Below are positions 22,032 through 50,149 of a stretch of 51,067 nucleotides of DNA, one piece after another. Source of the stretch: Caldimicrobium sp. (GTDB taxonomy: Bacteria; Desulfobacterota; Thermodesulfobacteria; Thermodesulfobacteriales; Thermodesulfobacteriaceae). The notes beneath the pieces are model-generated. The model was not told the DNA's origin, did not search any database, and saw only the letters and a program-made list of their open reading frames with translations. The position numbers and the translations under genes are program-made. Each line of letters opens with the position of its first letter. Position 1 is the stretch's first letter. The DNA lies in contig JANXCE010000013.1 of NCBI GenBank assembly GCA_025059715.1, forward strand, positions 1 through 51,067. Reading direction: 5' to 3'.

Positions 22032-22763
22032 ATGAGAAAGGTAATTGTAATTCCAGTTCGTTATGGTTCAACTCGCTTTCCCGGTAAACCCTTAGTCCAC
22101 CTCCATGGTAAACCCCTAATTCAATGGGTTTATGAATGCGCCTTAAAAAGTGATATTAGGGAGATTTATGTAGCAACTGATGATAAACGTATCTTTGATA
22201 CTGTGATAAATTTTGGTGGCAAAGCTGTGCTTACTGGAGAGCATCCTTCAGGCACCGATAGAGTTGCGGAGGCGGTAAACATTTTAGGTTTTTCTAAAGA
22301 GGATCTTATCATCAATCTTCAAGGAGATCAGCCTTTTTTCCCTGCGGAATATTTTCCCCTCCTTCTTCAGCCCTTGCTTCTCAATCCCGAAATTCCCATG
22401 GCTACTCTGGCGACCCCTATAAGAGACAAAAAAGATCTGGAAAATCCCAATAAAGTGAAGGTTGTTGTTGATCGAAGTGGTCGAGCATTATACTTCTCTC
22501 GAAGTCCTATTCCCTACTTTAGACCTCCTGGCAAAGAACCTGTATATCTAAAACACCTGGGAGTTTATGCTTTTAGAAAGTTTTTTTTAGATGACTTTGT
22601 GAAACTTCCTCAAGGAGATCTGGAAAAGGCGGAAAAATTAGAACAATTGAGAGCCTTAGAATATGGATTTACCATTGCAGTTAGTTTAGCACCTCAGGAT
22701 ATTCCTGAAGTGAACACTCCAGAAGACTTGGAACTCTTAAAGACTTATCTGAGGGTCCCATGA
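22032..22763 (+). CDS. kdsB: 3-deoxy-manno-octulosonate cytidylyltransferase (CMP-KDO synthetase)
   Basis: Activates KDO with CTP for lipid A core synthesis, so it marks an LPS-making cell. The 243 residues contain VIPVRYGSTRFPGKPL, the nucleotide-binding start, ATDDKRI, TGEHPSGTDRVAE, NLQGDQPF and HLGVYAFRK. There is no clear Shine-Dalgarno before the ATG; a leaderless or short-leader message is possible. Overlaps the next gene by 4 bases. Confidence 0.95.
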   Translation: MRKVIVIPVRYGSTRFPGKPLVHLHGKPLIQWVYECALKSDIREIYVATDDKRIFDTVINFGGKAVLTGEHPSGTDRVAEAVNILGFSKEDLIINLQGDQPFFPAEYFPLLLQPLLLNPEIPMATLATPIRDKKDLENPNKVKVVVDRSGRALYFSRSPIPYFRPPGKEPVYLKHLGVYAFRKFFLDDFVKLPQGDLEKAEKLEQLRALEYGFTIAVSLAPQDIPEVNTPEDLELLKTYLRVP

Positions 22764-23575
22764 AGAGAGAGCCTGTAGTAGCAGGTTATTTTTATCCTGG
22801 AAAAAGGGAAACTCTATTAACTAATTTAAGGGAATTAATAATTTTTGAGGATCTTAAGATTTCAGCTCTGGGAATTGTGGTGCCCCACGCTGGATATGTT
22901 TATTCGGGAAAAGTAGCTGGTAAGGTATATGGGAGGATTGAACCTCCAGATACCGCTATTATCTTAGGACCTAATCATACTGGTTTGGGTTGTAGAGTGG
23001 CTCTTTTTCCTGAGGGTAGCTTTTTAACACCCTTAGGGGAAACTCCAATAGACAGAGATTTACTACTTCTGATAACTGAAGAAACACCCTTTACAACCTT
23101 GGATGTCTTAGCCCATTTAAAGGAGCATTCTCTTGAAGTGCAAGTGCCCTTTCTTCAATTTCTGAATCCGGAAATAAAAATAGTAGCCCTTACTCTAAGA
23201 GATCTTGCCTTGGAAGAGATAAGAAAAATAGGAGAGGGGTTATCTAAAGCTATAAACCGGTATAAGGAAATTAGCGGTAAAAATGTTCTGTTGATAGCAA
23301 GTTCAGATTTTTCTCACTATGAACCCCATACAGAGGCTCAAAACAAGGATAGATTGGCTATAGAGGCAATTCTTAAGCTCTCGGAGAGGGAACTTTTGGA
23401 GGTAGTGAGTAGGGAGAGGATTTCTATGTGTGGCGTATTTCCAGTGGCAGTGCTCTTAGTTACATGTAAAAGCTTAGGGGCTAAAGAGGCCCATTTGATT
23501 GAGTATAAAACCTCAGGTGACATAACAGGTGATTATTACTCAGTAGTTGGGTATGCTGGAATAATAATTCAGTGA
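22760..23575 (+). CDS. MEMO1 family protein (AmmeMemoRadiSam system protein B)
   Basis: 271 residues. Family blocks: VAGYFYPGKRETLLTNL, GIVVPHAGYVYSGKVAGKVY, ILGPNHTGLG, HSLEVQVPFLQFLNP, IASSDFSHYEPHTEAQNKD and MCGVFPVAVLL. The His residues in PHAGY, PNHTG and HSLEVQ match the metal-site positions of this fold. It often accompanies a radical SAM protein and an AMMECR1 protein, but neither is beside it here. The function is not settled in bacteria. Confidence 0.88.
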   Translation: MKREPVVAGYFYPGKRETLLTNLRELIIFEDLKISALGIVVPHAGYVYSGKVAGKVYGRIEPPDTAIILGPNHTGLGCRVALFPEGSFLTPLGETPIDRDLLLLITEETPFTTLDVLAHLKEHSLEVQVPFLQFLNPEIKIVALTLRDLALEEIRKIGEGLSKAINRYKEISGKNVLLIASSDFSHYEPHTEAQNKDRLAIEAILKLSERELLEVVSRERISMCGVFPVAVLLVTCKSLGAKEAHLIEYKTSGDITGDYYSVVGYAGIIIQ

Positions 23576-23588
23576 GGATGTTTAAAAT

Positions 23589-24986
23589 ATGGTTGTAACA
23601 AGATTTCCTCCCAGCCCCACCGGACATCTTCACTTAGGTGGCGCAAGAACAGCTCTTTTTAATTATCTTTTTGCAAGACACCAAGGAGGAAAGTTTATTC
23701 TTCGTTTTGAAGACACAGATAAAGAGCGTTCCAAAGAAGAATATGTGGAATCCATAATATCTGCTTTAGAATGGCTTGGCCTTAAATGGGATGAGGGGCC
23801 TTATTTTCAGAGTAAGAGATTTTCGCTGTATCAGGAATATGCCCAAAGGCTTTATGAAGAGGGCAAAGCCTACTACTGTGAATGTTCTAAAGAGCTTTTA
23901 GAGGCCAGAAAAAAGGAACTGCAGGAGAGGGGTTTAAAGACACGATATGATGGAACTTGTAGAGATAAGAATCTTTCTCCAGCTCCCGGCAGGGCCTTAA
24001 GAATAAAGATTCCCGAAATTAGTGAAATCATCTTTGATGATCTTCTGAGGGGAAAAATTGTTTTTCCACCTGATGAGGTAGATGATTTTATAATACTTCG
24101 TTCTGACGGAAGTCCCACTTACCAGTTTGCCGTGGTAGTAGATGACATAACCATGGGAATAACCCATGTTATCCGAGGAGACGATCATATATCTAATACT
24201 CCCAAACAGCTTGTGATCTATCGTGCTTTGGGGGTAGATCCTCCTCTTTTTGCCCACATTCCCATGGTCCTCGGACCTGATGGAAATAGGCTTTCTAAAA
24301 GGCATGGAGCCAGGTCAATTTTGGAGTATAAAGAGGAGGGCTATTTGCCTCAAGCCATAATTAACTATCTTGCAAGACTTGGATGGGGCTACGGAGATCA
24401 AGAGTATTTCACAATGGAAGAACTAATTGAAAAATTTGACTTGCAAAAAGTTAATTTAGCTCCTGCCAGATTTGATCCAGAAAAGCTCCTTGCCTTCAAT
24501 GGCTACTGGATAAGAACTATACCTACTGAAGAGCTTCTTCCCCACTTAAAACCCTTCCTTACTAATTACCCCTTTCAAAAGTATTCTGAGGATTATCTTA
24601 TCAAGATATTAGAAAGCATTAAGCCAAGAGTTAAAACTCTTAAAGAAATGGCGGAAATGATGGATTTTTATTTTTTCGAGGAACTTTCTTACGAGAAGGA
24701 GCTCTTGGAGAAATACATACCTCCTAAAATAAAGGAAGTTTTAAAGAGGCTTTTTCAAGATCTCAATATCTTCAATTTTGAAGATGAAAAAAGTTTAGAG
24801 TTACAATTTAGAGAACTTGCGGAGAAAGAGGGAATAAAATTAAGGGATTTAGCACAAGCCTTAAGAATAGCACTTACTGGAAAGCCCATAAGTCCCCCCC
24901 TCTTTGAAGTCATGAAGTGTCTTGGGAGGGAGAGGGTAAAGGCAAGGATTGAGAGAGTTATAAAATTAAGAGAGGAGGTAGAATAA
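23589..24986 (+). CDS. gltX: Glutamyl-tRNA synthetase
   Basis: 465 residues, class I. The HIGH region is FPPSPTGHLHLGGARTALFNYL at the N-terminus; the KMSKS equivalent is NRLSKRHGA near residue 233. RFEDTDKERS, DDHISNTPKQ and YQFAVVVDD are family blocks. The zinc-binding type Cys residues (YCECS near 96, CRDKNLSP) are present. Its stop is 1 base before the next small gene. Whether it is discriminating or non-discriminating cannot be told by eye. Confidence 0.95.
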   Translation: MVVTRFPPSPTGHLHLGGARTALFNYLFARHQGGKFILRFEDTDKERSKEEYVESIISALEWLGLKWDEGPYFQSKRFSLYQEYAQRLYEEGKAYYCECSKELLEARKKELQERGLKTRYDGTCRDKNLSPAPGRALRIKIPEISEIIFDDLLRGKIVFPPDEVDDFIILRSDGSPTYQFAVVVDDITMGITHVIRGDDHISNTPKQLVIYRALGVDPPLFAHIPMVLGPDGNRLSKRHGARSILEYKEEGYLPQAIINYLARLGWGYGDQEYFTMEELIEKFDLQKVNLAPARFDPEKLLAFNGYWIRTIPTEELLPHLKPFLTNYPFQKYSEDYLIKILESIKPRVKTLKEMAEMMDFYFFEELSYEKELLEKYIPPKIKEVLKRLFQDLNIFNFEDEKSLELQFRELAEKEGIKLRDLAQALRIALTGKPISPPLFEVMKCLGRERVKARIERVIKLREEVE

Positions 24987-24987
24987 A

Positions 24988-25170
24988 ATGACAGACTTAT
25001 TTGTTATTTTTGGCTTAGTGATAAGTTTAATTATTCTGACCAGGTTGCTTTATACCAAAGGTAAACTCCCTGTCTGAGATATTCCAAGTTCCTCCCAGGG
25101 TGGGGTGAAGAATAATAAATGTCAGGGCGTATGTGAGAGTGATCCTCAGAGAGAAAATACTTTAAAGTAA
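24988..25170 (+). CDS. Candidate small membrane selenoprotein with in-frame TGA at codon 30
   Basis: An ATG with a strong Shine-Dalgarno (AGGAGGT, 24973-24979) opens MTDLFVIFGLVISLIILTRL, one transmembrane helix, then LYTKGKLPV and TGA (25075-25077). The same frame continues DIPSSSQGGVKNNKCQGVCE and ends TAA at 25168-25170. If the TGA is read as selenocysteine the protein has 60 residues: an N-terminal helix, Sec30 and a CxxxC pair (KCQGVC) 15 residues later. The longer reading packs tightly between gltX (1 base) and trpS (20 bases), as elsewhere in this genome; the short reading leaves a 113-base gap. A SECIS-like hairpin follows the TGA. If recoding is wrong, the gene is the 29-residue ORF 24988-25077. 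No family recognised. Confidence 0.5.
25089..25109 (+). promoter_or_regulatory. Possible bacterial SECIS hairpin after the TGA
   Basis: RNA arms UUCCUCCC and GGGGUGAA pair as U-A, U-A, C-G, one C/U mismatch, U-G, then three C-G, closing a five-base loop AGGGU (25097-25101). The loop begins 19 nucleotides after the TGA; known bacterial SECIS loops lie about 16-37 nucleotides after it and have a G in the first two loop positions. The E. coli fdhF element likewise has an irregular U in the 5' arm and an AGGU-type loop. By-eye folding only. Confidence 0.45.
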
Positions 25171-25190: not shown

Positions 25191-28305
<3,115 letters not shown>

Positions 28306-49258: not shown

Positions 49259-50149
49259 TTAGAAAAACCACTTCAAAATGCCAAGAAGGGCAAAAACTTG
49301 ACCTGCCCAAAATACAAACAACCACTTAATTAAGCTTGCCTTCAGCTGATATATCTCCTTTGTTAAATCCGCCCGGACCTTTTCTATTTCCTTAGTCAGA
49401 TCTGCTCGGACCTTTTCTATTTCCTTAGTCAGATCCGCCCGGACCTTTTCTGTTTCTTTAGTCAGATCTGCTCGGACCTTTTCTATTTCCTTAGTCAGAT
49501 CCGCTCGGACCTTTTCTATTTCCTTAGTCAGATCCGCTCGGACCTTTTCTGTTTCCTTAGTCAGATCCGCCCGGACCAATTCTTTTTCTTTAGTCAGATC
49601 CGCTCGGACCAATTCTATTTCCTTAGTCAGATCTGCTCGGACCTTTTCTATTTCCTTAGTCAGATCTGCTCGGACCTTTTCTATTTCCTTAGTCAAATCT
49701 GCTCTTATTTTTTCTATCTCTCTTGTAAACTTTAACTCTATCTCCTTTAGCTCTTTAGTTAAATCCGACCTAACTTTCTCTATCTCTGCTCTAATTAATT
49801 CGATCTCCTTGCTAAATTTTAATTCTACTTCTCTAATTTCTTTAATTAACTCCCCCTTGACCTTTTCTACTTCTCCTCTAACTTTCTCTATTTCTAAGGT
49901 CAAATCCGCTCGGCCCTTTTCTATTTCAGCTCTTATTTTCTCCATTTCCACTTTTATTGTTTCAATCTCCTTTACCAAACGAGCCTCTAACTCCCTTATT
50001 TCTTTAGTTAATTTGAGAATACTTTCTTGATGTTCCTCTGAGGTGACCGCTTTTCTACGCTCTATCTCTTCTATATATTCCGCAAGAAGACGGGCTGGCT
50101 CTTCACCAAATTGTCTGAACGCCTCGTATATCCTCACTGCGTATACCAT
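49259..50149 (-). CDS. Membrane-anchored coiled-coil protein with hendecad repeats (DUF1640-like)
   Basis: 296 residues. The N-terminus (MVYAVRIYEAFRQFGEEPAR, then LLAEYIEEIERRKAVT) resembles the head of the DUF1640/CCDC90 coiled-coil family. From residue 45 on it is continuous charged coiled coil. Residues 144-264 are eleven near-identical 11-residue units of the form EIEKVRADLTK plus a twelfth diverged one, a hendecad pattern. The last 22 residues (WLFVFWAGQVFALLGILKWFF) form one membrane helix, so it is tail-anchored. AAGGAG precedes the ATG. Function unknown. Confidence 0.8.
   Translation of the reverse strand: MVYAVRIYEAFRQFGEEPARLLAEYIEEIERRKAVTSEEHQESILKLTKEIRELEARLVKEIETIKVEMEKIRAEIEKGRADLTLEIEKVRGEVEKVKGELIKEIREVELKFSKEIELIRAEIEKVRSDLTKELKEIELKFTREIEKIRADLTKEIEKVRADLTKEIEKVRADLTKEIELVRADLTKEKELVRADLTKETEKVRADLTKEIEKVRADLTKEIEKVRADLTKETEKVRADLTKEIEKVRADLTKEIEKVRADLTKEIYQLKASLIKWLFVFWAGQVFALLGILKWFF
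49358..49720. repeat. Eleven-unit 33-bp tandem repeat inside the coiled-coil gene
   Basis: Eleven consecutive 33-base units, most differing at only a few positions, each coding one 11-residue coiled-coil turn. A diverged twelfth unit follows at 49325-49357. The near identity at DNA level points to recent expansion or repeat homogenisation. Confidence 0.92.

Follow-up and report, generated by a model that had tools for sequence, protein, structure and literature searches.

A 2026 review of bacterial selenoproteins (PMC13188914) lists 119 families and notes that nearly all selenoproteins have Cys homologues, and deep-Sep may filter out selenoproteins without Cys homologues (PMC12013277). In eukaryotes, selenoproteins K and S are small single-pass membrane proteins with a cytosolic Sec near the C-terminus. 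FeoB-associated Cys-rich membrane proteins (PF12669) have about 50 residues, a single helix, and Cys-containing tails, and they contain no Sec. Here we describe a microgene in a contig of Caldimicrobium sp. (GenBank JANXCE010000013.1; the whole analyzed stretch of 51,067 nucleotides is called the window), the product of which is very likely a bacterial selenoprotein and a member of a conserved family of UGA-decoded microproteins. We put the probability at roughly 0.95 for Sec decoding and at about 0.93 for this being the best explanation as a whole; the support is sequence evidence, without protein-level or 75Se data.

Microgene in the window

The initial annotation, made from the sequence alone, had proposed a candidate selenoprotein gene at 24988-25170, and all the elements that it named (AGGAGGT, ATG, TGA, open frame, TAA, KCQGVC, and hairpin) were confirmed in place (Table 1). 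The ATG (24988) is one base past the gltX stop, and after the TGA the frame stays open for 30 more codons up to a TAA (25168-25170), which is separated by 20 nt from the trpS ATG (25191). KCQGVC corresponds to residues 44-49, and the hairpin arms, TTCCTCCC (25089-25096) and GGGGTGAA (25102-25109), form seven of eight stem pairs around an AGGGT loop starting 19 nt past the TGA. A search of the window against Rfam gave no match. The annotation had cautioned that a 30-codon open frame can occur by chance, and this held, the open frame alone being weak evidence. The selenoprotein claim itself is supported by the sequence evidence given below, and the family proved larger than had been thought.

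Two other features of the window were observed. A MEMO/AmmeMemoRadiSam-B-like gene (22760-23575) lies upstream of gltX, and a similar arrangement of the MEMO-gltX-microgene order is found in Thermodesulfatator (L149). Besides, positions 49259-50149 encode a protein of repeated KVRADLTKEIE-type coiled-coil units followed by a C-terminal hydrophobic segment.

Table 1. Positions of the microgene, its elements, and its neighbors in the window
Feature	Position	Strand	Basis or remark
Microselenoprotein gene, 60 aa (very likely)	24988..25170	+	Sequence, homologues
Product sequence (putative) MTDLFVIFGLVISLIILTRLLYTKGKLPVUDIPSSSQGGVKNNKCQGVCESDPQRENTLK	24988..25170	+	
Ribosome-binding site AGGAGGT, within gltX 3' end	24973..24979	+	Sequence
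Transmembrane helix, residues 2-24 (predicted)	24991..25059	+	AlphaFold2, hydrophobic stretch in aligned members, C-terminal side net positive
Sec codon TGA (U30; very likely)	25075..25077	+	TGA in same column of listed family matches; one TGT Cys homologue
SECIS-like hairpin TTCCTCCC-AGGGT-GGGGTGAA	25089..25109	+	Sequence; family-wide test
gltX, upstream neighbor, 1-nt gap; adjoins the microgene in related loci too	23589..24986	+	
trpS, downstream neighbor	25191..26189	+	

Homologues and the codon at the Sec position

In four relatives within the genus (G003, G004, G001, and G005), gltX and trpS flank the gene, its codon 30 is TGA, and G-[IVF]-P comes next; two further relatives (G006 and G002) also carry the microgene. 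In another genus of the same family, TGA is found at codon 30-32, and several copies are located upstream of a dapB-like gene. A first profile, built from these genus and family relatives, matched 120 of 395 genomes of the phylum, and a second profile matched 173 of the 395 (113 of 245 genera). TGA was inside every match apart from the weakest ones, which this statement does not cover. The family consensus is M-x-[DE]-L-L-x-L...W...[IL]-[LF]-P-[KR]-[ML]-G-[VI]-x-T-U-M-x-x-[SA]-C...KKK. Since the profile writes U as C at the Sec column, Cys homologues would score at least as well, and thus the scarcity of Cys is not a search bias.

We also scanned 84,980 species with a codon-neutral DNA pattern, which allowed TGA, TAA, TAG, TGT, TGC, TGG, TAT, or TAC at the Sec position. 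Eighty loci were read; all the family members among them (76/76, a lower bound for the family) had TGA, and the other four (L124, L137, L148, and L176) were discarded as chance matches. Judging from record titles, the members include Citrifermentans bremense, Geomobilimonas luticola, Desulfocicer vacuolatum, Thermodesulfatator autotrophicus, and an Olavius symbiont in the Desulfobacterota, as well as MAGs of KSB1, Acidobacteria, Planctomycetes, Verrucomicrobia, Cyanobacteria/Obscuribacter, Margulisbacteria, and Spirochaeta. This spread rests partly on single assembled genomes, which can be mis-binned; the Acidobacteriota were then searched directly, and 81 of 347 genomes matched, about 78-79 with TGA and one with a Cys codon (TGT).

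The Cys homologue (L275 in G618) reads ...WVLPAMGIGT-C-MSGACKVPAP... around the Sec position. Its genome is absent from the 221 of 347 Acidobacteriota genomes having selA, and its hairpin score is 3, compared with a mean of 17 and a first percentile of 9 in 167 TGA members. In this one genome, the lack of a selA match, the replacement by Cys, and the loss of the SECIS-like hairpin coincide. The initial annotation had named homologues all stopping at codon 30 with TAA or TAG as a refutation; the same codon was TGA or, once, TGT, and neither TAA nor TAG was seen there in any member of the family. An in-frame UGA that is conserved and exchanged with Cys, as expected of a bacterial selenoprotein, is therefore found here, with a single TGT copy on the Cys side.

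A locus with Trp at the Sec position (L288) was discarded as a chance match and not a family member, and a weak match in G507 was also discarded. A scan of genome contigs with the single protein gave no match, and a plasmid search for the family was empty. Obscuribacter-type genomes (G421, G423, and G430) have two or three paralogues each (L236, L237, L247, and L250-L253), all with TGA. An acidobacterial subset (L282-L287) has the motif GVPT-U-[GSA]-V, which is like U-G-V-P of the window genus and unlike U-M-x3-C.

Conserved tail, cysteine, and predicted topology

The tails are open for at least 13 codons in all 168 TGA members; of the two remaining frames, one is open for 12 codons in only 65% of cases and the other in 57%. 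A Cys follows within 25 residues in 163 of the 168 members, and U-x4-C is present in 129; in the window genus, the Cys is further from U than in the U-x4-C members. The conserved feature in these 168 members is U with a downstream Cys, not the CxxxC that the initial annotation had emphasized, which is common only to the window protein and its nearest relative (G003). AlphaFold2 predicted a helix at residues 2-24 of the window protein, with a pLDDT of about 92 over residues 1-20 that falls thereafter, and a disordered tail. Family members carry a net charge of about -0.5 at the N-terminus and of +2.6 near the end of the helix and beyond it, from which, by the positive-inside rule, we infer that Sec is placed on the cytoplasmic face.

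Sec machinery and its co-occurrence with the gene

The initial annotation would have been refuted by a genome without selB and selC, and selA, selB, and selC were all found. The selB match scored 378 bits (cut-off, 242), the selA match scored 605 bits, and the tRNA-Sec gene scored 79 bits against a gathering threshold of 47; ARAGORN called it tRNA-SeC with anticodon tca. The Sec machinery required for a bacterial selenoprotein is thus present in the window genome. Among the 173 positive genomes of the phylum, selA was found in 166, and the other 7 had selB matches (only in pieces in G205). In the Acidobacteriota, selA was present in about 74 of 79 TGA-type genomes versus 147 of 266 genomes without the gene (odds ratio, 12; p = 1e-11), where the counts were made manually and the 74 include one chance match (G725). 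Five of the TGA-type Acidobacteriota genomes gave no match to selA, the only machinery gene looked for there; these assemblies are perhaps incomplete.

SECIS-like hairpin downstream of the UGA

On its own, the window copy is borderline. Its segment did not fold significantly better than shuffles (z = -0.24), and its hairpin gave p = 0.05 with codon shuffling and p = 0.086 with synonymous codons. Across the family the signal is clear: with scoring that required a G within the first two loop positions, the best-hairpin score in 121 members averaged 16.6 versus 9.1 in sequences encoding the same residues, and 67 of the 121 had p <= 0.05 in the synonymous-codon test (Fisher p = 3e-59). Since the members are related and do not count as independent observations, this combined value is an overstatement. 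The difference from the upstream control still stands: there, the 51 nt before the UGA reached p <= 0.05 in only 3 of 122 members. The loops are mostly 16-24 nt past the UGA. SECIS-like hairpins that satisfy the criteria for bacterial elements (just 3' of the UGA, 16-37 nt to the loop, and a G at loop position 1 or 2) are thus conserved family-wide at the expected distance.

Besides, in the U-x4-C-[QR] group we found a covarying pair at one fixed position (T-A in 23 and C-G in 17), the 5' base of which falls at position 3 of the Cys codon. It was paired in 89% of cases versus 71 +- 4% after shuffling (maximum, 83% in 1,000 shuffles). A fixed-register pair scan gave no signal for the group in which the hairpin position varies.

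A referee may suppose that the gene encodes a 29-residue membrane peptide ending at an ordinary UGA stop, with the downstream frame open by chance. Frames of about 30 codons do arise by chance, and the fold of the window hairpin is unremarkable; against this, the listed homologues from several phyla have TGA and not TAA or TAG, the Cys and the open frame are conserved past the TGA, structured RNA lies there, and a true Cys form exists. We consider this explanation all but excluded. The same holds for a UGA read as Trp or by leaky suppression instead of as Sec: the open frame past the UGA would agree with it, whereas the carriers are nearly all Sec-decoding genomes, the hairpin is present, and the one true member that has a sense codon instead encodes Cys, its genome being selA-negative.

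Gene neighborhoods and possible role

In the window's family, gltX is the partner of the microgene (14 loci in all). Some Desulfobacterales have an FeS/cytochrome b pair upstream (4-5 loci) and an ECF sigma-factor ORF downstream, and Geobacter-type loci have a glyoxalase-like gene and CcdA as neighbors. Outside the Desulfobacterota, the recurrent neighbor is a sulfane-sulfur gene, which may be MBL plus two rhodanese domains, a single-domain rhodanese, a CoA-disulfide reductase with rhodanese, or a YeeE/TsuA-like transporter that has an ArsR regulator close by. Rhodanese adjoins the microgene in 9 loci versus 0 of 219 distant ORFs, the persulfide-dioxygenase-type MBL is found in 4 loci, and the CoA-disulfide reductase is found in 4, including that of the Cys homologue. 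This co-location of sulfane-sulfur genes is seen in several Acidobacteria, Planctomycete, and Obscuribacter-type loci and not at the window locus. The comparison of near and far neighbors was post hoc, since the reference proteins were picked after the loci had been read, and it is suggestive without being a formal test.

In two related genera (L051-L053 and L055), the sequence after the microgene has a translation, RARRDSNPRPLAPEANALSN, that resembles a translated tRNA gene. Three acidobacterial loci (L136, L270, and L297) share a small methyltransferase-like gene (MNKKVHWETVY...), which lies close to the microgene and the rhodanese genes. The ECF sigma-factor ORF starts 40 nt past the Sec UGA, apparently within the microgene tail, at 10 loci (L078, L121, L126, L145, L152, L169, L178, L180, L182, and L185); it is possible that this overlap reflects translational coupling or a selenium-linked switch.

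Such an overlap, together with the tight gene packing at the window locus, might favor a chiefly regulatory explanation, in which the UGA and the SECIS element switch the following gene (trpS, or ECF sigma in some Desulfobacterales) in response to selenium, and the peptide itself is of secondary importance. We regard this as very unlikely, as the downstream genes vary by lineage while the protein sequence is kept, and the Cys version persists without a hairpin.

In our preferred reading, UGA30 would be decoded as Sec by SelB and tRNA-Sec via the hairpin just downstream, giving a product of about 50-60 residues with one predicted transmembrane helix (residues 2-24) in an N-out/C-in orientation. 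The Sec would lie about six residues past the end of the helix, on the cytoplasmic face of the membrane, within a flexible Lys-rich tail and with a Cys nearby, and the two may form a reversible selenenylsulfide, which is inferred and not shown. By further inference, also not shown, the protein may act as a membrane-tethered selenol/thiol relay for sulfane-sulfur (persulfide) or thiol redox handling. This role is proposed because rhodanese, persulfide-dioxygenase-type, and CoA-disulfide-reductase genes often adjoin the microgene outside the Desulfobacterota; it is tentative, and on balance we would sooner doubt than assert it. The case for it is thinnest in the lineage to which the window belongs: the Desulfobacterota neighbors (gltX/trpS, ECF sigma, FeS/cytochrome b, and CcdA) are not persulfide genes, and thus the role may not hold there, the window included. 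The initial annotation had suggested a redox or metal site; redox is plausible and unproven, and for a metal site there is no evidence either way.

It is also possible, though rather unlikely, that instead of handling persulfides the protein serves a membrane redox complex, either formate-dehydrogenase-like or a CcdA/thioredoxin system, as a Sec-containing accessory subunit. This is favored by the FeS and cytochrome b genes found upstream in 4-5 loci of the Desulfobacterales, by CcdA in the vicinity of 5 loci, and by thioredoxin in that of 4; against it, these associations are lineage-limited and none is present at the window locus. Returning to the persulfide reading, a bolder form of it is that nearly Sec-exclusive membrane-tethered microselenoproteins of the Desulfobacterota, Acidobacteriota, and other phyla use the selenol in sulfane-sulfur/persulfide redox at the membrane, with Cys hardly substituting; the present evidence falls somewhat short of making this the expected outcome.

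Comparison with known systems

No significant match was found in Pfam or NCBIfam (r20, June 2026) for the window protein or other members, nor in Pfam for an alignment of the family (A3); a PDB profile search was empty, and nothing similar appears in the 119-family table of PMC13188914. The family is absent from the curated catalogues searched, and a description in literature outside that searched is not excluded. Filtering out of selenoproteins without Cys homologues would explain this omission. The family is found in about 44% of the sampled genomes of the phylum and about 23% of the sampled Acidobacteriota, and it very likely comprises membrane proteins of about 50 residues in hundreds of bacteria of several phyla, often beside sulfur-handling genes. 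Discovery methods that depend on Cys homologues would tend to overlook it, and its existence suggests that further Sec-only small proteins are probably hidden. Besides, Sec seems almost irreplaceable in this family, which makes the question of "why selenium" testable.

The YeeE/YedE (TsuA-like), rhodanese, and persulfide-dioxygenase gene sets accompany the microgene outside the Desulfobacterota and have no homology with the microprotein. Compared with PF12669, the microprotein is alike in size, helix, and Cys tail, but it has no Pfam match, no feo neighbors were noticed, and it very likely has Sec. With selenoproteins K and S it shares, by analogy only and without a Pfam match, the layout of a small single-pass membrane protein with Sec toward the C-terminus and, as inferred here, facing the cytosol. 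It differs from known SelB/SECIS selenoproteins in being a single-pass membrane protein that is not thioredoxin-like and has almost no Cys homologues, whereas it resembles them in the UGA, the hairpin mostly 16-24 nt downstream, the early loop G, the Sec/Cys exchange, and the confinement of the microgene largely to Sec-decoding genomes.
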